Assembly: GCA_001801685.1 (NCBI GenBank)
Contig: MGYJ01000091.1
Span: 1 to 43,163, forward strand
Source of the DNA: Gammaproteobacteria bacterium RIFCSPHIGHO2_12_FULL_63_22
Lineage (GTDB): Bacteria > Pseudomonadota > Gammaproteobacteria > Xanthomonadales > Xanthomonadaceae
Length of the DNA: 43,163 nt
Reading direction: 5' to 3'
Below the pieces are notes generated by a model that had not been told where the DNA came from, did not search any database, and worked only from the letters and a program-made list of their open reading frames with translations. The position numbers were made by a program, and so were the translations under genes. Of this stretch, positions 74 through 41,335 are shown in pieces; positions within the stretch are counted from its first letter, which is position 1; the number at the start of each line of letters is the position of its first letter.

Positions 74-655
74 ATGGGCCGTCCTGCTTTCAAACCGACC
101 GATGAACAGCGCGCCAAAGTGGCGCGGTTGATCAAAGGCAAGGTCCCAATTGAGGAAATAGCGCGCCGCATGGAGTTGGCGGAGAAAACGCTCCGTAAAT
201 ATTTCGGCGCCGAGTTGGGGTTAATCCCGGTAGAAACAGTAAATACCGGCTTGGCGATGGCGCGTCCGCGCACCGAAGTGTTCCGGCCAAGCGATGAACA
301 GCGCGAGATGGCGATGATCCTCGCGGGCGCACGGCTTTCGCATCCGGAAATCGCCCGCAAGTTGGGAATCACGGAGGAGTGCCTACGAGAGCACTTCGGC
401 GACGAGCTCGAGAAGGGCCCGATCAAGTGCAAGGCCGACATCCTTGCCGCGATGTTCTATTCCGGCAAGGGCGGCAACGTCGCCGCGGCGAAGGTCTTCC
501 TCCTGTTCAACGGCCAGGGCGATCCTGGGCCCGACCAGCAACCCGCGAAGGTGGGGCTGCAGGGCAAGAAGGTGCAGGCCGCCATCGCGGCACAGACCGC
601 TGAGGCTGGCACCAGTTGGGAAGACGTCGTTCCTCCGTCCGGCCGACCGAACTAG
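74..655 (+). CDS. Putative terminase small subunit with duplicated HTH
   Basis: This 193-aa protein immediately precedes the large terminase, where the DNA-recognition subunit is expected. It has two similar helix-turn-helix-like repeats: about residues 5-48 (PTDEQRAKVARLIKG...IEEIARRM...LRKYFG) and 72-115 (PSDEQREMAMILAGARL...EIARKL...LREHFG). A conserved-looking tail follows (ADILAAMFYSGKGGNVAAAK, about 123-142) that resembles terminase small subunits of alphaproteobacterial phages. The start ATG follows CGGAG at good spacing. The stop is 3 bases from the large-subunit start, so the two are co-translated. Function is inferred from position and HTH content; the doubled HTH is unusual. Confidence 0.72.
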   Translation: MGRPAFKPTDEQRAKVARLIKGKVPIEEIARRMELAEKTLRKYFGAELGLIPVETVNTGLAMARPRTEVFRPSDEQREMAMILAGARLSHPEIARKLGITEECLREHFGDELEKGPIKCKADILAAMFYSGKGGNVAAAKVFLLFNGQGDPGPDQQPAKVGLQGKKVQAAIAAQTAEAGTSWEDVVPPSGRPN

Positions 656-658
656 CGC

Positions 659-3520
659 ATGCAACTATCCCTGGCGGTCCCCGATTGGGAAGACCGCATC
701 CGCCGCGGACTTTCCCTCGTCCCGAAGATCAACATCAATCCCGCCGAGCAGCTGCGCGCTGTCAAGATGTTCGGCCGCCTACGGTTGCCGGACGTCCCCG
801 GCCAGCCGACGCTCGAGGTCGCCTGCGGCGATTGGTTCAAGGATATCGTCGGTCCGGTGCTGGGGTCACTGGATCCTGAGACCGGCGCCCGGGTGATCCG
901 CGGTCTTTTCCTGCTGGCCCCCAAGAAATCGAGCAAAGCGCTCGCCTTGGATACTCAGATTGCGACGCCGTCGGGCTTTACGACAATGGGCGCTGTCGCT
1001 GTTGGCGATCTGGTTCTGGATGCAGCCGGAGTTTCGACGCGCGTCACGGCTAAGAGCGAATGCTTTCTTGGGCGCCCCTGTTTTGATGTCGAGTTCAGCA
1101 CCGGCGAAACCGTCACCTGCGACGCTGACCACCTCTGGATTACGGATGCGCACCGTGACCGCGAGCGGCTTAATGCGCGCGCTCAGCGGGCAAAGCCGCG
1201 GCCATCGGTTAAGACGACGGCGGCGGTTGCAGCATCAATTACGGTTCCGAGTGGCCGGTATTCGATCAACAATCACCGCACGGCGCTCTGCGGAGCCCTT
1301 GCGCTCCCAGCCGCCGAACTGACGATCCCGCCGTATGCCCTTGGCGTTTGGCTAGGAGACGGCGCTACTGATGCGGCCCTAGTTACCACTGGACTCCAGG
1401 ACGCCGACGCGATTGTCGAGCGTTTGGTTGCGAACGGCCAGCCGGCCTATGTGCGAGCGTGGTATCCCGAAAAGGGCTCAGCGACGATAACACTGGGTGA
1501 GCCCAACACCCGAACGGAACGGCTACCCTACAGGTTTCGCACTGAGGCCGTGAAGCTTCACGTCCTGGGAAACAAGCATATTCCCGGTGCCTACCTGCGC
1601 GCCTCCCATGATCAGCGCCTTTGGTTGCTGCGCGGATTGATGGATACGGACGGCCACGTCACCACCAGCGGTGAATGTGTTTATACGACTACCCTTCCCG
1701 CGCTTCGCGACGATGTGCGCGAGCTCATTGCTTCGCTTGGGTTCAAGCCCACGTATTCCGAGCATCGGGCGATATTGCGTGGTAAGGATCATGGACCTTA
1801 TTGGCGCGTTCGATTTACCGCATTTGCCGATACGCCGGTTGCGACGATAGAACGGAAGTGCCGTCAGAAAAAGCGGCCAGAGCGCACGGCGCGCTCCGAA
1901 AGCCGCCAGATCGTCGCGGTGCGTCCCGTCAAGAGCGTGGCTGTCCAGTGCATCGCCGTTGAAAGCGAGACGAAGCAATATCTCGTTACGCGCTCACTGA
2001 TTCCGACGCACAACACGACGTACGGCGCCGGCATGATGATGACGGCGCTGCTGATGAACAGGCGCCCGAACGGCGAGTTTCTTCTCACCGGTCCTACCCA
2101 CGACATTTCTGAGATCGCCTATGGTGCGGCCGAAGGGATGATCGAGGCCGATGACGACTGGCAGCGCCAGGAAAACGGTCAGGAAGGCTACCTCAAGAAG
2201 GTCTTGCACTCCCGCGATCACCTGAAAACGCTTGAGCATCGGCGCACGGGCGCAAGTCTGAAGATTAAGACCTTCGACATGGACGTCGCCACCGGCGTGA
2301 AACCGGTAGGCGTGCTGGTCGACGAGCTCCATGTCATCTCGAAAGACAAGAATGCGTCCCGCGTGCTCGGCCAGCTCCGCGGCGGCCGCATTTCGAATAC
2401 GGAAGCGTTCTTCGCCATTATCACCACGCAGTCGGATGAGCCGCCCGTCGGCGTCATGGCAACGGAACTGTCGAAGGCTAGGGCGATCCGCGATGGCCGC
2501 GCACATGGCGACACGCTCAGCGTGCTGTATGAGTTTCCGCCAGAGATAGCGAACTCCATTCCGCGCTGGTACGATTCTAAGCTCTGGCCGATGGTCACGC
2601 CGAACCTCGGCCGGTCGGTGACCATCGATGTTCTTGAAAAGGAATTCGACGAAGCCAAGCAATCCGGCGAGACGGAAATCCGGCGCTGGGCGTCGCAGCA
2701 TCTCAACATTGAGATTGGGCTGAACCTTCGATCGAATAGATGGGCCGGCGCCGAGTTTTGGGCGAAGCAGGCGGACCCGGAGCTTTCGAAGCTGAAGCCT
2801 TTCGATGCGCTCACCGCGGTGCTGGATCGCAGCGAATCGGTGGTAGTCGGTCTTGATGGCGGCGGCCTGGACGACCTTTTCGGCTTCAACGCCCTTGGGC
2901 GCTCACCCGATACGATCGACGTCAAGGGCGTGGTGAATGGCCGCGAGGTCATCACCAAGATGAAGCGCTGGTGGTCCTGGTCGCATGCCTGGTGTCATGA
3001 AGGCGTGCTGACACGGCGGCAGTCGATCGCCTCGACGCTGCGGGACTTTCAAAAGGCAGGCGAGCTGACGATCGTTGGCGACGAACTCGGCGATATCGCG
3101 GCGATGGTCGAGATCATTCGGCAGATTAAAGACCGCGGACTGCTCGCCGGCGTGGCGGTCGACCCTGCTGGCCTCGGTGAATTCGTCGATGCCCTAGCCG
3201 AGATCGACGTAACCCAGGAAAACAAGCTCCTCATCGGTGTGCCGCAAGGCTACCAGATGATGAACGCGATTAAGACGACGGAGCGGCGCCTCGCAAACGA
3301 TACCTTCCGCCATTGCGGCGGCATCATGATGCCGTGGTGCGTTGGAAATTTGAAAATCGAGCCGCTCGCCACGGCAATCCGTGCGACCAAACAGTTTGCC
3401 GGTGACGCGAAAATAGACCCGGTTATGGCCGTATTCGATTCCGTCAGCGTGATGCAGACCAACCCTTCGCCGGCCGGCGGAAGGTCTTATCTCGAAACGC
3501 AAGATCTTCTCATCCTGTGA
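659..3520 (+). CDS. terL: Terminase large subunit (HK97/lambda-type) containing an intein
   Basis: DNA-packaging motor ATPase and nuclease, 953 aa as translated and 594 aa after removal of a 359-aa intein (residues 94-452), which is the normal family size. The Walker A motif is split by the intein: A87-P-K-K-S-S-K93 on one side and T453-T-Y-G on the other. Walker B is VLVDE at about residues 551-556 (D555, E556). The C-terminal half contains an RNase H-like nuclease start (VVVGLDGGGLDDLFGF) and a later Asp-rich segment (VAVDPAG, AVFDS). It couples ATP hydrolysis to DNA translocation at the portal and cuts concatemers. Activity should depend on splicing because the P-loop is incomplete in the precursor. 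Confidence 0.95.
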   Translation: MQLSLAVPDWEDRIRRGLSLVPKININPAEQLRAVKMFGRLRLPDVPGQPTLEVACGDWFKDIVGPVLGSLDPETGARVIRGLFLLAPKKSSKALALDTQIATPSGFTTMGAVAVGDLVLDAAGVSTRVTAKSECFLGRPCFDVEFSTGETVTCDADHLWITDAHRDRERLNARAQRAKPRPSVKTTAAVAASITVPSGRYSINNHRTALCGALALPAAELTIPPYALGVWLGDGATDAALVTTGLQDADAIVERLVANGQPAYVRAWYPEKGSATITLGEPNTRTERLPYRFRTEAVKLHVLGNKHIPGAYLRASHDQRLWLLRGLMDTDGHVTTSGECVYTTTLPALRDDVRELIASLGFKPTYSEHRAILRGKDHGPYWRVRFTAFADTPVATIERKCRQKKRPERTARSESRQIVAVRPVKSVAVQCIAVESETKQYLVTRSLIPTHNTTYGAGMMMTALLMNRRPNGEFLLTGPTHDISEIAYGAAEGMIEADDDWQRQENGQEGYLKKVLHSRDHLKTLEHRRTGASLKIKTFDMDVATGVKPVGVLVDELHVISKDKNASRVLGQLRGGRISNTEAFFAIITTQSDEPPVGVMATELSKARAIRDGRAHGDTLSVLYEFPPEIANSIPRWYDSKLWPMVTPNLGRSVTIDVLEKEFDEAKQSGETEIRRWASQHLNIEIGLNLRSNRWAGAEFWAKQADPELSKLKPFDALTAVLDRSESVVVGLDGGGLDDLFGFNALGRSPDTIDVKGVVNGREVITKMKRWWSWSHAWCHEGVLTRRQSIASTLRDFQKAGELTIVGDELGDIAAMVEIIRQIKDRGLLAGVAVDPAGLGEFVDALAEIDVTQENKLLIGVPQGYQMMNAIKTTERRLANDTFRHCGGIMMPWCVGNLKIEPLATAIRATKQFAGDAKIDPVMAVFDSVSVMQTNPSPAGGRSYLETQDLLIL
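938..2014 (+). other. Intein with LAGLIDADG endonuclease, class 3 features
   Basis: In-frame insertion of 359 residues in the terminase P-loop. It begins ALALDTQIATPSG (Ala at position 1 instead of Cys/Ser) and ends PTHN before Thr+1. Class 3 inteins are defined by Trp in block B, Cys in block F and Thr in block G; here W67 lies in DHLW (block B, with H65), C338 in VQCIAV (block F) and T357 in PTHN (block G), with terminal H358-N359. The central part carries LAGLIDADG motifs LGVWLGDG (135-142, D141) and LRGLMDTDG (231-239, D238) plus KHIPGAYL (213-220, block D), so the homing endonuclease looks intact. Boundaries are set by terminase homology and splice motifs. Confidence 0.93.
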
Positions 3521-3529
3521 GGGCAAGGC

Positions 3530-3727
3530 ATGAATTTGCGTGCGCGCGCCCTCGCGGCGATCGCCTGGGTGGCAAGCAATTCGCCGGCCCTGTCGCGGGA
3601 CGTGGCCGGGCTGACCGGCGCTGGCTTGATTAGCTATGGCGTTGGCCTCGTCTATGAACCGGCCGGCTACATCATCGCCGGCATGATGCTGGTCGCGACT
3701 GCACTTCTGACAGGGCGGGGCAAGTGA
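3530..3727 (+). CDS. Small membrane protein between terminase and portal
   Basis: 65-aa protein with an N-terminal basic stretch (MNLRARALA) and one or two hydrophobic segments, about residues 24-41 and 43-60 (AGYIIAGMMLVATALL). The stop TGA overlaps the portal start (TGATG). Small membrane genes at this place occur in several alphaproteobacterial phages, but the function is not established. It could be a holin-like protein or a head-assembly accessory. Confidence 0.65.
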   Translation: MNLRARALAAIAWVASNSPALSRDVAGLTGAGLISYGVGLVYEPAGYIIAGMMLVATALLTGRGK

Positions 3728-4995
3728 TGCGCAGCCTTTTCGGAAGTCTCGCGGAAGGCCTGGAGCGGAAGTCGACCGACATTTCCGCTCTCACCTGGTC
3801 GAAACTCTTCGGCGACGACGCCCGTGCAAAATCAGGCGTTTCCGTCAATATCGATTCAGCGCTTCGGGTTTCGGTCGTCCTGGCCTGCGCGCGTGTCATA
3901 GCCGAGGGCGTGGCCCAGACACCGATCAAAGCCTACATCGAGACTGACGACGGCGATAAAACGGTTGCCCGCAATCTGCCGCTCTATGGCTTGCTGCACG
4001 ATCAACCCAACGAGTGGATGACGGCCTACGAATTCATCGAGACGCTGACGCTGCATGCGGTGTTGGCGAAGGGCGGCTACGCCTTTATCAATCGGATCAA
4101 GGGTGAGCCGCGCGAAATCATCCCGCTGATGCCGCACCAGGTCAAAGCGGTGCAGTCTGCCGATTACACGCTCGGATATGAGGTTTTCGACCTTCACGGA
4201 AAGACGCTGGAGACGCTGGCGCCTTCAAGCATTCTTCATCTCCGCGGCCCGTCCTGGAACGGCTATTGCGGCCTCGACATCGTTCAGGAAGCACGCGATG
4301 CCATCGGGCTCGCGATCGCTACCGAAGAGACCCACGCTCGTTTTCACGCGAATGGCGCGCAGGGCGGCGGACTCATCTCGTTCAAGAACGGCCTGAAGGA
4401 TGACCAGATCAAGCGCCTGAAGGAGGGCATGAAGGAATTCACCGGGCTGGCGAACAAGTTCAGGACCATGATCCTGGACGACTCCGCAAAATTTGTCCCG
4501 ATGTCCATGTCTGGTGTCGATTCACAGCATCTCGAAACACGCCGTATGCAGATCGAAGAAATTTGCCGCTTCACGCGGGTGTTTCCGCTGATGGTGATGC
4601 ACTCCGACAAGACCGCAACATTCGCGTCGGCAGAGCAGTTCTTCAACGCGCACAACATCCACACGCTCGGCCCGTGGTTCGCGCGTTGGAAGGGCATCAT
4701 CCGCCGGGACCTAATTACGCCAGCACAGCGCAACGCGGGCGTGGTCGCGGACTTCGTCATCGAAGCGCTGTTGCATGCGGACATCGCCGCGAAGGGTCAG
4801 TTCCTGCGCGAGATGACCGGCGCCGGCATTATGGATCGCAACGAGGCGCGTCAGAAGCTGAATCTCAACAAGCGGACTGGGCTCAGCGACCCATTGGTTC
4901 CGCAAAACATGGCGACGGTCGATGAGGAAGGCAATGTGGTTCCTGTGTCGGCGCCACCGAGCAAGCCGGCCGCTTCCGAAGAACCCGAGGAATGA
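3727..4995 (+). CDS. Portal protein (HK97 family)
   Basis: 422-aa portal that forms the dodecameric ring at one capsid vertex through which DNA is packaged and the tail attached. Family signatures include VNIDSALRVSVVLACARVIAEGVAQTP near the N-terminus, the PHQVKAV...YEVFD region, the ILHLRGP segment, FHANGAQGGGLI and MHSDKTATFASAEQFF in the C-terminal half, and a disordered acidic, Pro-rich tail. Length fits the family. ATG at 3727 is coupled to the preceding stop; GTG at 3724 would add one residue. The gene overlaps the protease start by 4 bases. Confidence 0.93.
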   Translation: MRSLFGSLAEGLERKSTDISALTWSKLFGDDARAKSGVSVNIDSALRVSVVLACARVIAEGVAQTPIKAYIETDDGDKTVARNLPLYGLLHDQPNEWMTAYEFIETLTLHAVLAKGGYAFINRIKGEPREIIPLMPHQVKAVQSADYTLGYEVFDLHGKTLETLAPSSILHLRGPSWNGYCGLDIVQEARDAIGLAIATEETHARFHANGAQGGGLISFKNGLKDDQIKRLKEGMKEFTGLANKFRTMILDDSAKFVPMSMSGVDSQHLETRRMQIEEICRFTRVFPLMVMHSDKTATFASAEQFFNAHNIHTLGPWFARWKGIIRRDLITPAQRNAGVVADFVIEALLHADIAAKGQFLREMTGAGIMDRNEARQKLNLNKRTGLSDPLVPQNMATVDEEGNVVPVSAPPSKPAASEEPEE

Positions 4996-5750
4996 GAGGG
5001 TTAGGGCAAATGCATAGCGCAGCGACACCACACCTCGAACGGAAGGATTCCTCCGCGAGCTCGGAGCGTCGTGACTTCGAAATGAAGTTCGAAGCTGGCG
5101 AGAAGGCCGGCCTCTTCACCGGGTACGGCGCCATTTTCGGCAACGTCGATTCCTACGGTGATGTGATCGAGAAAGGCGCTTTCAAGGAGACACTTCGCGA
5201 ATGGGAAGCGAAGGGCAAGCTGCCGCCGATGATGCTGCAGCATGGCGGCGGCATGTTCGGCGGCACGGCTGAAGATATGCTTCCCGTTGGGCAGTGGCTG
5301 TCGATGGAAGAGAATTCGAAGGGATTGAAGGTCGAAGGCCAGCTCTTCGCGCTGCAAACCGAAAAGGGACAATACCTCTACGAGGGCATGAAGTCGGGCG
5401 TGCTCGACGGCCTGTCGATTGGGTATGTCACCAAGAAAGCCACCAACGGGACGAAGCCGACAGATCCGCGCCGGCGATTGGAGGCGGTCGATCTGCGCGA
5501 GGTCAGCATCGTGACGTTCCCGGGTAATGATCGCGCGCGGGTGAGCGGCGTAAAGGCCGCCCGCGACATCAAAACGATTCGTGAATTTGAGGACTTCCTA
5601 CGGGATGTAGGCGGGTACTCGCATAAGGCCGCCAAAGCCATTGCGGCAGGCGGCTTCAAAGCCAGAACGGACCCTCGGGATGAGGACGGCGACGGCGAAG
5701 GTGCGGAAGCGCTGCGTGCGCTCACCCGCAAGATCCGTTCCACCCTATAA
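4992..5750 (+). CDS. Prohead maturation protease (HK97 family, peptidase S78)
   Basis: 252-aa serine protease that cleaves the capsid protein N-terminal domain during head maturation. The fold pattern is clear: FTGYGAIFGNVDSYGDVIEKGAF (residues 42-64), the catalytic His in PPMMLQH (H84), the catalytic Ser in GLSIGY (S142), and the conserved VDLREVSIVTFPGND block. The start ATG overlaps the portal stop (ATGA); ATG at 5010 is an alternative. A basic C-terminal tail follows the catalytic domain. Its place between portal and capsid matches the HK97 gene order. Confidence 0.92.
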   Translation: MRGLGQMHSAATPHLERKDSSASSERRDFEMKFEAGEKAGLFTGYGAIFGNVDSYGDVIEKGAFKETLREWEAKGKLPPMMLQHGGGMFGGTAEDMLPVGQWLSMEENSKGLKVEGQLFALQTEKGQYLYEGMKSGVLDGLSIGYVTKKATNGTKPTDPRRRLEAVDLREVSIVTFPGNDRARVSGVKAARDIKTIREFEDFLRDVGGYSHKAAKAIAAGGFKARTDPRDEDGDGEGAEALRALTRKIRSTL

Positions 5751-5761
5751 GGAGTCCTTCA

Positions 5762-7042
5762 ATGGAACCCGAAGTGAAAGAGGCCGTCACCGGTCTTATG
5801 ACTGCGTTCGAGGAATTCAAGGCCACGAACGACACCCGCCTGAAGCAGATCGAAACCAAAGGCACCGCCGATCCGACCACGGTCGACAAGCTTGCGAAGC
5901 TCGAGGCCAAGATCGCCGCCTATGAGCCGATGGGCCAGAAGGTGACCGCGGTCGAACTGCAATCCAAGGCCGCCAAGGACGCCGCCGACGAAGTGAAGAC
6001 GGCTCTTGACGCGCTCACACTCAAGATGCAGCGCCCCGGCGCTGGCGGCGACAACAAGCGCGCCGAACTCAAGGCGATGGTCAACACCTGGGTTCGCGGC
6101 GCCGTCGGTGCGCACACGATGGGCGTTGCCAATCTGCCCGACGATCAGCGCAAGGCCCTCGAAGATGCGACCGCCGAATACAAGTCGCTGAACGTGTCGG
6201 CCGACACCGCGGGCGGATATCTCGCGCCGATCGAGTTCGTCGCGGAGATCATCAAGGGCGAGACCGAAATCAGTCCGGCTCGCTCCTTGGTCCGTGTCCG
6301 ACAGACTGCGCTGAAGTCGATTCAGATCCCGAAACGGACGGGCCAGTTCGCGGCCGTCTGGGTTGCCGAGCAGGGAACTCGCTCGGAAACCACCGGCCTT
6401 GCCTACGGGCTGGAGGAAATTCCCACGCATGAAATCTATGCGCTGATCGATATCTCCCAGCAGATGCTGGAAGACTCGGCCTTCGACATGGAAGCGGAAG
6501 TGCGCGGGGAATCGATCGAGCAGTTCGCGGTAGCCGAAGGCGCGGCGATCGTCAGCGGCAATGGCGTTGGCAAGCCGCAGGGCTTCCTCGCCCATCCCGA
6601 TCTGGCGACCACCAACTCCGGCGCGGCGACGACCGTGACGGCCGATGGCTTACTGACCCTGAAGCACGCCATCAAGACCGCTTACACCCGGAACGCGAAC
6701 TTCGTGCTCAATCGCACGACGCTGGGTTCCGTGCGCAAGCTGAAGGACGGCAACGGGCAATATCTCTGGATGCCTGGCCTTGCCAGCGGAAAGCCGAACA
6801 CGATCGACGGCGATCCGTATGTCGAGATGCCCGACATGCCGAACGAAGGCGCCGGCGCGAAATGCGTCGCCTATGGCGACTTCCGCCGCGCCTATGTGCT
6901 GGTCGATCGTATCGCGATGCAGATGCTCCGCGATCCGTTCACGCAGGCAACCGCCGGCAACATCCGCTTCATCATGCGTCGCCGTATCGGCGGCCAGATG
7001 GTGCTGGCGGAAGCCGTCCGGGCGCTGGTCTGCTCGGCGTAA
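5762..7042 (+). CDS. Major capsid protein (HK97 fold)
   Basis: 426-aa major head protein. Residues 1 to about 90 are predicted coiled coil (delta/scaffold-like domain, rich in Lys, Glu, Ala) that the upstream protease should remove. The mature part contains family landmarks such as SADTAGGYLAPIEFVAEIIKG, SPARSLVRVRQT, VWVAEQG...ETTGLAYG, HEIYALIDISQQMLEDS and the C-terminal DFRRAYVLVDRIAMQMLRDPF. A ribosome binding site (AAGGAG) precedes the ATG, as expected for the most abundant virion protein. It is followed by a strong hairpin. Confidence 0.95.
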   Translation: MEPEVKEAVTGLMTAFEEFKATNDTRLKQIETKGTADPTTVDKLAKLEAKIAAYEPMGQKVTAVELQSKAAKDAADEVKTALDALTLKMQRPGAGGDNKRAELKAMVNTWVRGAVGAHTMGVANLPDDQRKALEDATAEYKSLNVSADTAGGYLAPIEFVAEIIKGETEISPARSLVRVRQTALKSIQIPKRTGQFAAVWVAEQGTRSETTGLAYGLEEIPTHEIYALIDISQQMLEDSAFDMEAEVRGESIEQFAVAEGAAIVSGNGVGKPQGFLAHPDLATTNSGAATTVTADGLLTLKHAIKTAYTRNANFVLNRTTLGSVRKLKDGNGQYLWMPGLASGKPNTIDGDPYVEMPDMPNEGAGAKCVAYGDFRRAYVLVDRIAMQMLRDPFTQATAGNIRFIMRRRIGGQMVLAEAVRALVCSA

Positions 7043-32296: not shown

Positions 32297-33916
32297 TCAG
32301 GCCGATGCGCGGAACGAAATGCGTTCCTGTCCTAGGAATAGCGATGTGCGGTGCCCCGCAACTCGCGATTCCTTGGGTCCACCGGCAACGGTGGACCCTC
32401 GGATTGCTCCAGCCGAAGCAACATTCAGAATCCCCGCCAGATCGCCGATCAGGTCAACGCTGGGCCCTTCCGGCGCCATAGTGATGACGATGCGGTCTAT
32501 CAGACTTCGAAGTGTCTCACGGGCCTTCGCGGCCGCGGTTTGCTCGCCTGACAGCGATGCCGCGAGTTCGCTGACCTTCCGCCGGTACACCTCCGCCATG
32601 TTGGGGTGCAGGTAAGGCCCTGGTGCTTCTTCCTGTCCGGATTGGGCCAGCAGCACCGCGCGGCGCTCTTCGAGTTCGACCATGCGCTCTCTCACTCGAT
32701 CGGCCGGGACGCCTTGCGCAAGCGCATCAACGAAGCGGTCCAGTTCCCTCGTAACCTTGGCAAGGTCTGCCTCGCGGCCGCGAATGCTCACCGCCTGCTC
32801 GCGTCGGCGCTCGTTCATGACGCGGGTGAACGTCTCGCAGAACGCGGCAAAAGCCTCCGGACGGACGAGGTTGCACTCAAGTGCGGTAAGTATCCTGCGC
32901 TCCAGCTCTTTCTTGTTGATGCGGGCGGGGTCGGGGCATGTGCCGCGATCGTGGGCTGTCGAGCATCCGAACTGCGTCTGATTGATCGCCGACATGCCGC
33001 CGCCACAACTGGCGCATTTGATCAGCCCGGATAGAAAATGCTTCGGCCGGCGCCGGCCGGAAAGCGGCTTGTGCTCATAGGCGCCTTGGCGCTCCTTCAC
33101 GCGCTGCCAGATATCGTCGTCAACGATGCGCAGGTGCGGCGCCGGCACCCTCACCCAAGCATCGCGCGGGTTCGCTCGCGCCTGGCGCTTGCGGGAATCG
33201 GGATCCTTCACGAAGCGCTGCCGGTTCCAAACCATGGTGCCGATGTAGATCTCGTTATTGATCACGCCGAGCCCGCGATGCCGGTTGCCTACCACGGTCG
33301 ATGGGCCCCATAGCCGACCGCCAGGCCCGGGCACCGCGGCCGCATTCAAGCGCTTGGCGATCTGCCGTGGCGATAGGCCCTGATCGTATTCGATGAAAAT
33401 GCGGCGCACGATGGTAGCCTCGCCCTCGTCGATCGACCGCTCTCCGACGGCTGTGACGCGATAGCCATAAGAGAGACCAGCGACAGCTTTGCCAGATTCG
33501 AGCTTGCCGCGCATACCGCGACGGGTCTTATCAGCGAGATCCTTCAGGAAGATGGCATTCATCGTGCCCTTGAGCCCGACGTGCAGCGCGCCAATCTCCC
33601 CTTCCGACAATGTCACCAGCGCAACGCCAGCGAAGGAGAGGCGCTTGTAGATGCCGGCGACGTCTTCCTGATCGCGCGAAATCCGGTCGAGCGCTTCTGC
33701 GATAATGATGTCGATTGAGCCATCGCGTGCCGCCGCAAGCGCGCCTTGCAGTCCCGGCCGGAGAATGGTGGCGCCCGATACGGCGGCATCGGAATAGACA
33801 TGGACCACGGTCCAGCGCTGCTTCGCTGCATGCTCACGGCAAAGGCGTATCTGATCGTCGATCGACGCCGCCGTCTGAAGGCTCGAGGAATAGCGGGCGT
33901 AGATGGCGGCGCGCAT
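32297..33916 (-). CDS. Serine integrase (large serine recombinase)
   Basis: 539-aa site-specific recombinase for integration and excision. Resolvase domain residues 1-150 with MRAAIYARYS (catalytic S10), IIAEALDRISRDQED (about 71-85) and the linker helix to about 150; recombinase domain about 150-280 (GYRV...GLSPRQIAKRLNAAAVPGPGG); zinc ribbon C301/C304/C318/C327 (CASCGGGM...GCSTAHDRGTC); C-terminal coiled coil. ATG at 33916 overlaps the upstream stop (TGATG), so it is translationally coupled as the last gene of the leftward operon. ATG at 33937 is an alternative start. No excision factor is identified. Confidence 0.92.
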   Translation of the reverse strand: MRAAIYARYSSSLQTAASIDDQIRLCREHAAKQRWTVVHVYSDAAVSGATILRPGLQGALAAARDGSIDIIIAEALDRISRDQEDVAGIYKRLSFAGVALVTLSEGEIGALHVGLKGTMNAIFLKDLADKTRRGMRGKLESGKAVAGLSYGYRVTAVGERSIDEGEATIVRRIFIEYDQGLSPRQIAKRLNAAAVPGPGGRLWGPSTVVGNRHRGLGVINNEIYIGTMVWNRQRFVKDPDSRKRQARANPRDAWVRVPAPHLRIVDDDIWQRVKERQGAYEHKPLSGRRRPKHFLSGLIKCASCGGGMSAINQTQFGCSTAHDRGTCPDPARINKKELERRILTALECNLVRPEAFAAFCETFTRVMNERRREQAVSIRGREADLAKVTRELDRFVDALAQGVPADRVRERMVELEERRAVLLAQSGQEEAPGPYLHPNMAEVYRRKVSELAASLSGEQTAAAKARETLRSLIDRIVITMAPEGPSVDLIGDLAGILNVASAGAIRGSTVAGGPKESRVAGHRTSLFLGQERISFRASA

Positions 33917-34170
33917 CACGTAGGAGCGTCGACACATTCGGTGATTTTGCGCGCAATCTCATCATACTGTAATTGGAAGTCCTCTCGCATGATCTGGCGC
34001 ACCTTCGCCGCGGCGGCGGCGGACATGGACGGGCCGATTTCGCAGGCGTCAGCATAACCAGCGCTTTGGCTATCCGATGCGTCCTGGCCGGCCAGTCGCG
34101 CAAGCATGTCCCTCAGTCTCCGGCGCGCTGCAACCAAGTTTGCAATTTCTTCGACTTTATCATCGTTCAT
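33916..34170 (-). CDS. Hypothetical helical protein before integrase
   Basis: 84-aa charged protein with predicted helices (KVEEIANLVAARRRLRDML, SAAAAAKVRQIMREDFQLQY). It overlaps the integrase start and the gene before it. A recombination directionality factor or integrase partner is possible from position, but no family is recognised. Confidence 0.65.
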   Translation of the reverse strand: MNDDKVEEIANLVAARRRLRDMLARLAGQDASDSQSAGYADACEIGPSMSAAAAAKVRQIMREDFQLQYDEIARKITECVDAPT

Positions 34171-40251: not shown

Positions 40252-40590
40252 ATGGCCATGCAAAAATGCGTTGAATGTGGGCATGAAATTTCAGCGCAGG
40301 CGAAGGCTTGCGTGAATTGCGGTCATCCCCTGAAGAGATCCAGCGGCGCCCGCATCTTGATGCTGATAGTTGGGATACCCGTGGCCGGGTTCGCAGCCCT
40401 CGTGATTTTTGGGGCAATTATCGGGCCTTCGGAGGTAAGCCTTCGCGAAAGAATTGATCGTTCTTGCCAGGAGCAGTTTGGTGATCGTGGCGAGGCCGCG
40501 GTGACGGAATGCCGACTGCGGTTAAGCGTAGAAGCTCTTGGACAAGCAGAGCGTGAGCGCCTTGAGCGCGCCAGGAATGGCGGGCGTTAG
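40252..40590 (+). CDS. Zinc-ribbon membrane protein
   Basis: 112-aa protein with an N-terminal zinc ribbon (C6, C9, C20, C23 in KCVECGHEISAQAKACVNCG), a membrane helix (about 34-55) and a charged C-terminal helix with two further Cys. It follows the WYL/TerB gene by 7 bases and shares a transcript. Its stop overlaps the convergent repressor stop by 3 bases. Confidence 0.68.
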   Translation: MAMQKCVECGHEISAQAKACVNCGHPLKRSSGARILMLIVGIPVAGFAALVIFGAIIGPSEVSLRERIDRSCQEQFGDRGEAAVTECRLRLSVEALGQAERERLERARNGGR

Positions 40591-41252
40591 TGTCGCCGGA
40601 TCGAGAGGAACATTCTCCCAATGACGATCAGGCGGTCCAGCTTCTTTATGGTCTGCGGCTGATATTTGGGATTGTCTGACGCTAGGGTCACGGCACGCGT
40701 TTCAATGTGCTGGGACGCGCGCTTAATGACGGCATCGCCCTCGACGTTCAAAGCGTAAATGCCTGGATTTGTCAGGTGGGTTCGCCGCCGATCGACCAAG
40801 ATCCAGTCGCGGTGGTAGAGGGTCGGCTCCATACTGTCTCCGTCGACCTGGAATACACCAATCTCGGTAAGCGGCGCATTGGTCATCGACCGCAAGAGCG
40901 ACAAGCTCATGATGAAGTGGTCGATTGGCGCCTCTTCATAATTCTGCGCGCCGGCGCCTGCGGCGAATCGGATATCGTAAACCGGCAACCGTGCGAATTC
41001 AGCACCCTCTACGTCGACGATCGATTGATCACGGCCCCGCGTGCCAGCATCTAGAAACCAGGCGCCAATGTCGACGCCGAGCCCGTCGGACAACTTCTGA
41101 GCGGAGGCGGCCGTCGGGGTTTGGCCCTTTTCCAAAATGTCTCTCAGATAGGTTTCGTTGAGCTTGGACTTTTTGCTCAGGGCTTTTCGATTGCCGCCCT
41201 GCTCCTCTACGAGCTCGGCCAATCGCTGCCGCCAGTCATTTCGGATTCGCAT
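40587..41252 (-). CDS. CI-like repressor (HTH-XRE plus S24 peptidase)
   Basis: 221-aa repressor. N-terminal HTH about 10-60 (GGNRKALSKKSKLNETYLRD), linker, then LexA/CI-type S24 domain with Ser140 in VFQVDGDSMEP and Lys177 in EGDAVIKRA. A possible self-cleavage pair Ala98-Gly99 lies in RFAAGAGA, so SOS-induced cleavage is plausible. ATG at 41252 is chosen; an extended frame to 41324 encodes MGFTPLVNG from the operator block and is rejected. It should bind both operator blocks. Confidence 0.9.
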   Translation of the reverse strand: MRIRNDWRQRLAELVEEQGGNRKALSKKSKLNETYLRDILEKGQTPTAASAQKLSDGLGVDIGAWFLDAGTRGRDQSIVDVEGAEFARLPVYDIRFAAGAGAQNYEEAPIDHFIMSLSLLRSMTNAPLTEIGVFQVDGDSMEPTLYHRDWILVDRRRTHLTNPGIYALNVEGDAVIKRASQHIETRAVTLASDNPKYQPQTIKKLDRLIVIGRMFLSIRRH

Positions 41253-41287
41253 ACAAAATGATGGAAAACGGACCGCGCCAGCGCCAC

Positions 41288-41335
41288 TGGGTTCTGGCCC
41301 ATTGACAAGTGGGGTGAAACCCATCAGCGTGCCCG
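41288..41335. promoter_or_regulatory. Right operator block (OR-like)
   Basis: 41297-41335 is the exact reverse complement of 39385-39423. The flanking TGGGTTCTG (41288-41296) keeps most of the outer dyad arm (7 of 9 positions with the left block). TTGACA at 41302-41307 points toward the Cro-like gene. It lies between the repressor and that gene, as expected of OR. Confidence 0.72.

Follow-up and report, generated by a model that had tools for sequence, protein, structure and literature searches.

The window, that is, the whole stretch of 43,163 nucleotides analysed here, is the entire contig C91 of the 4.26 Mb genome of Gammaproteobacteria bacterium RIFCSPHIGHO2_12_FULL_63_22, and is identical to the IMG/VR record UViG_2710723518_000009; its ends share no exact overlap of 16-300 bases, the range checked for terminal redundancy. 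Near its start lies a reading frame without internal stop or frameshift over all its 953 codons, which outside an inserted segment is, by its family matches, a phage large terminase (TerL) (Table 1). The HTH protein encoded directly upstream is probably the small terminase subunit (TerS), a name suggested by its position, and the portal, prohead protease and capsid genes that follow downstream are all open and typical. The window also carries a serine-type integrase and a CI-like repressor, and therefore belongs to a temperate phage. A search of our phage collection with positions 1-25000 returned no DNA-level relative, and no TerL homologue was found in 60 genomes of the same genus, family or order besides the own genome (0/60), where the only match to the inserted segment is its own locus, with no second copy.

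Table 1. Features of the window and, in the last two rows, of contig C55 from the same genome; counts out of 105 refer to the related inteins described in the text.
Feature	Position	Strand	Evidence
HTH protein, candidate small terminase subunit	74..655	+	PF01527 2.5e-07; PF13384 3.9e-06; phrog_12540 1.2e-24 (unknown function)
TerL precursor ORF, intein inside, 953 aa	659..3520	+	phrog_9 terminase large subunit 1.2e-77; PF20441 TerL_nuclease 3.1e-06
N-extein, 93 aa, P-loop ...APKKSSK at its end	659..937	+	alignment to intein-free TerLs
Predicted class 3 intein, 359 aa, ALALD...IPTHN, ORF residues 94-452	938..2014	+	PDB sequence matches, extein alignment, 15- and 105-sequence comparisons, model
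Splicing block A, ALALDTQIATPSGF; residue 1 = Ala, no nucleophile	938..979	+	Ala1 also in 76/105 relatives
Block B His65 (codon 1130-1132), Trp67 (codon 1136-1138)	1130..1138	+	both in 105/105 relatives
LAGLIDADG homing endonuclease region, intein residues 131-291	1328..1810	+	PF14528; PI-SceI alignment
Asp141 (codon 1358-1360), Asp238 (codon 1649-1651)	inside 1328..1810	+	PI-SceI alignment
Block F Cys338, predicted initiating nucleophile	1949..1951	+	Cys in 105/105 relatives
Block G Thr357, His358, Asn359	2006..2014	+	Thr, Asn 105/105; His 104/105 relatives
C-extein, 501 aa, first residue Thr+1 (P-loop Thr), contains TerL nuclease domain	2015..3517	+	PF20441, phrog_9, extein alignment
Portal protein	3724..4995	+	PF04860 7.8e-80
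Prohead protease	4992..5750	+	PF04586 7.8e-26
Major capsid protein	5762..7042	+	PF05065 6.4e-75
Serine-type integrase	32297..33937	-	phrog_95 integrase 9.2e-87; phrog_125 DNA invertase 3.1e-19
CI/LexA-like repressor	40587..41324	-	phrog_4 transcriptional repressor 1.7e-29
TerL ORF with class 1 intein, L002, contig C55, own genome	1423-3837	-	other phage in same genome
HNH ORF inside the L002 TerL intein, other frame, same strand	1544-2266	-	PF13392 2.6e-16

The splice junctions read ...PKKSSK/ALALD...IPTHN/TTYGAG.... The initial annotation had proposed a comparison with intein-free terminases, which we carried out on three TerLs: once the exteins were joined by script, all three aligned gap-free across the junction, where PKKSSK-TT faces PKKNAK-TT in Microcystis phage Mel-JY03, PKKNSK-ST in Pseudomonas phage IME307 and SKKNTK-ST in Burkholderia phage Bcep176. 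Without recourse to any intein motif, this defines residue 1 and the +1 residue, confirms Ala1 as the splice junction, and places the insertion exactly where it had first been read, after the P-loop Lys and before the Thr that follows it. That packaging by this TerL is impossible without splicing is a reasonable inference.

Several features of the insertion point to class 3. Residue 1 is an Ala, and thus offers no Ser, Thr or Cys nucleophile; Trp67, Cys338 and Thr357 form the triplet Trp B:12, Cys F:4 and Thr G:5; the +1 residue is Thr; and the block B His, the penultimate His and the terminal Asn are present as His65, His358 and Asn359. The residue numbers first given for Ala1, Trp67, Cys338 and Thr357 are exact, and the assignment of 938..2014 to class 3 is borne out by these residues, by the alignments and by the structural model. 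His65, Trp67, Cys338, Thr357, His358 and Asn359 do not vary in an alignment of 15 sequences, and the triplet and the terminal Asn are found in every one of 105 related inteins, with the penultimate His missing from a single one, an agreement that is partly built in and not independent since similarity to the query is how the relatives were found. At +1, 58 members of this set have Thr and 47 have Ser. Left out of the set were L011 (the same as L010), L012 and L036 (the window itself) and L015 (a partial match), and L072, which has lost its N-end at a contig end, was dropped before counting.

Among the viral loci compared, L072 (5-1042) and L084 (2501-3484) have class 3-type C-ends in which Gly replaces the penultimate His and which precede a P-loop GK (PTGN/CGKS and PTGN/SGKD, respectively); the +1 residue of L072, whose N-end is cut off, would be Cys, which is rare among class 3 inteins. 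Another, L014 (3131-6787), encodes a viral TerL whose single reading frame contains two inteins, a class 3-type one at the P-loop and, further on, a class 1-looking one (DCLAGDT...VHN/C).

The best phmmer matches among PDB sequences are the Msm DnaB-1 intein (6bs8, 1.1e-23) and the Mch DnaB-1 intein (6rix, 2.4e-23; 6riy, 1.2e-22). Most of the score comes from the N-terminal block (72.0 and 69.2 bits); the C-terminal block is weak when taken alone (13.6-15.8 bits, i-Evalue 0.05-0.22) and aligns ungapped, Cys on Cys and THN on THN. At the level of sequence, then, the likeness to class 3 DnaB inteins is not due to chance. In Mch DnaB-1 the catalytic triad has been described as Cys124/His65/Thr143, together with Trp67 (PMC7664689); His65 and Trp67 bear the same numbers in the window intein, and the Cys and Thr align with Cys338 and Thr357. 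The two DnaB-1 inteins further share with it Ala1, a C-end of the form Cys...THN (as described in PMC7664689), the P-loop family of insertion sites and the HINT fold, the latter predicted by our model, and differ from it in being mini-inteins of ~140 residues without endonuclease, inserted in a replicative helicase. In Krischviruses (Escherichia phages FL04, FL15 and PTE-Eco09, matches H52, H55 and H56, and viral locus L031 at 2009-4825), the genes that the intein matches carry the annotation 'replicative DNA helicase'; the one in FL04 follows the small terminase gene and is a TerL by position. The helicase label is probably a naming error arising from the intein's likeness to DnaB inteins.

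We rejected the assignment to class 1 as modelled by PF14890, because this general Pfam intein model, which finds two other inteins in the same genome, does not list the window intein and because residue 1 is Ala. NCBIfam gave weak matches, the best (0.017) to the model of an intein-containing enzyme. As PF14890 misses a clear class 3 intein here, censuses built on it may undercount such inteins. Elsewhere in the genome, on contig C25 (L001, 559-3168), a B12-binding radical SAM protein is interrupted by an intein that matches PF14890 (1.5e-13) and, in frame, HNH_3 (2.5e-05).

An AlphaFold2 model of the intein, built on a 38-sequence alignment, reached a pLDDT of 91.3 and a pTM of 0.91 and has the HINT fold of the solved class 3 inteins, as a predicted structure. 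The top Foldseek match was PI-SceI (15-16% identity, query TM up to 0.73), and the Mch and Msm DnaB-1 chains (6riy, 6rix, 6bs8) were recovered at a target TM of 0.83-0.86; the high rmsd to these class 3 inteins (8-13 A) comes from alignments that extend over the inserted endonuclease. PI-SceI, a class 1 intein, sits in the yeast V-ATPase and resembles the window intein in carrying a two-motif LAGLIDADG endonuclease with aligned acids.

The LAGLIDADG endonuclease with both catalytic acids, also part of the initial annotation, stood up to closer analysis. PF14528 (LAGLIDADG_3) matches intein residues 225-291 (9.9e-08), and a slice of 180 residues matches PI-SceI (1.5e-04) such that Asp141 lies opposite residue 218 and Asp238 opposite residue 326, the catalytic acids of PI-SceI. 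Both motifs thus have their acid, and the endonuclease is apparently intact as judged from sequence and model; Asp141 is found in 95/105 relatives, and Asp238, like Lys213, in 101/105. We consider it a real possibility, though not the favoured one, that the splicing domain works while the endonuclease no longer cuts, the intein being inherited and not mobile: neither the phage collection (searched with window positions 1-25000) nor the 60 related genomes hold a close intein-free relative to show recent homing, and against this stand the two acids, the conserved Lys213 and an endonuclease region free of frameshifts.

Taken together, the insert is with high probability a full-length class 3 intein that carries a LAGLIDADG homing endonuclease of its own and is lodged in the P-loop of the TerL of a temperate tailed phage. 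The steps of class 3 splicing are known from relatives (PMC5222942, PMC7664689), and by their example Cys338 in block F would attack the Lys-Ala1 bond after translation to form the block F branched intermediate, the acyl group would then pass to Thr+1, Asn359 would cyclise and release the intein, and an acyl shift would join Lys and Thr, restoring the ATP-binding loop. The freed intein would cut the same site in intein-free terminase genes and be copied in by repair, i.e., home. For mycobacteriophage TerL inteins, splicing was observed in all five that were tested (sites b, c, e, f and g), and cleavage of an intein-free site in both of the two assayed for it (PMC5050341); by analogy with these results both activities are likely for the window intein. 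A route as in class 2, with Thr+1 attacking the N-terminal junction directly and Cys338 a bystander, seems very improbable: Ala1 would be expected of a class 2 intein too, and both routes are in principle open to inteins with the class 3 signature (PMC5222942), but the full Trp-Cys-Thr triplet is present, and all three inteins examined in that study lost splicing when the Cys was replaced by Ala (PMC5222942).

Two residues of the intein are uncommon. Residue 335 is Ala where 97/105 relatives have Pro, and Lys346 of block F is shared with 4/105, at a position that varies widely and where His, the commonest residue (51/105), has been described as assisting Asn cyclisation (PMC7891396). These two residues, an argument from sequence, would fit a dead intein in a prophage terminase that is a pseudogene; such decay is hard to reconcile with an uninterrupted 953-codon frame, with the filling of every catalytic position of the intein and with open and typical portal, protease and capsid genes alongside, and we give it very little credence. 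It is conceivable, at long odds, that the intein splices only under certain conditions and so forms a post-translational gate, keeping the terminase motor off until an induction-linked signal lets Cys338 react; if so, DNA packaging would be tied to prophage induction or to redox state.

As to where the intein came from, its closest relatives, L037 (44% identity) and L038 (42%), sit in TerLs of other families, whose C-exteins are only ~21-22% alike to that of the window, and the intein of the nearest TerL homologue, in the viral contig L069 (IMG/VR; C-extein 37% identical over 493 residues), is only 39% identical. This might hint that the intein was recently acquired from the terminase of another family and not inherited with this TerL, an origin we regard as doubtful: a tree of the inteins (87 of 106 rows used) places that of the window nowhere with support, and its grouping with L069 is not rejected (p-AU 0.52) and has a slightly higher likelihood. 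Given the unplaced intein and the AU test, we make no claim of recent transfer. The L069 intein occupies the same site (...ISKKNTK/STIAAG), with Ser at +1 in place of Thr.

The founding survey of class 3 inteins is said to be that of Tori and Perler in 2011. The view expressed at first that they form a small group is out of date, as 1,701 were counted in nr in 2020, 82.5% of them with LAGLIDADG motifs (PMC7891396). We found a relative of the window intein (E <= 1e-3) in 730 of 50,697 phage records, 465 of which cover at least 80% of the intein; 300 records reach 1e-25, and 272 of these are Mycobacterium phages. Viral contigs hold at least 578 loci with a relative; 80 of these were kept. A junction between Lys and Ser or Thr fits 84 of the 105 inteins compared, and the TerL1-a site of mycobacteriophages, where the insertion likewise separates the invariant Lys of the TerL P-loop from the Thr, was named in 2016 (PMC5050341). 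On these published counts, the described site and our own numbers, we rejected the idea that a class 3 intein at the P-loop is rare; it is ordinary. The intein of Mycobacterium phage Flypotenuse (Kostyavirus, L033), which we infer to be TerL1-a, reads ...ARKNGK/ALDVET...PTHN/TELL and has the Trp, Cys and Thr of the window intein. The mycobacteriophage TerL1-a group belongs to another terminase family, and its inteins share ~34% identity with that of the window. Vibrio phage 489E54-1 (L020) and Escherichia phage AV108 (L026) also combine the class 3 signature with a Lys/Thr junction in the TerL P-loop, in different TerL families (35% intein identity each, tblastn). The reading of the window is thus right, but such inserts at such sites are already well known.

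The same genome carries, on contig C55, the terminase gene of another phage, and its intein is of class 1 (Cys1, terminal Asn and Cys+1; 327 aa) and is inserted at the TerL nuclease domain. Nucleotides 216-938 of its 981 bases double as an HNH nuclease gene read in a different frame of the same strand. We found an identical layout and frame offset in three of three further phage terL genes with an HNH match (Tetrasphaera phage TJE1, Rhodobacteraceae phage LS06-2018-MD07 and Acinetobacter phage Highwayman), and a fourth phage, Pseudomonas phage FBPa53, encodes the HNH in a gene of its own. Among viral loci with a related HNH (L116-L199; the best 80 of 455), the HNH lies inside a longer reading frame, always in one relative frame, in 67 of 80, and does not in 13. 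The overlapping frame is fully open in 61/69 distinct HNH regions, versus 4.8% after codon shuffling, and the remaining frame in 0/69. Pfam Intein_splicing matches 60 of 62 distinct overlapping ORFs, and Cys1, the block B His and the terminal Asn are present in all 62. In 20 pairwise comparisons of overlapping HNHs, not independent because the pairs have members in common, 981, 800 and 1707 substitutions fall at HNH codon positions 1, 2 and 3, a pattern that shows selection on the HNH frame. A full-text search, covering literature other than preprints and most subscription papers, returned no description of inteins with an out-of-frame HNH; the nearest found is a report of out-of-frame HNH genes in phage methylase insertions that its authors could not identify as inteins (PMC11855218). 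To judge from these sequences, inteins that have their homing nuclease encoded in another reading frame seem to be widespread.

The window thus adds one well-formed class 3 intein at a type of site already described, in a temperate phage whose first 25 kb have no DNA match in the phage collection, and would be practical at the bench as an example of a class 3 intein that is full-length and has an endonuclease. The inteins with an out-of-frame HNH matter more, because in them an overlapping gene and two selfish functions are tied to an essential phage protein in many viral contigs.
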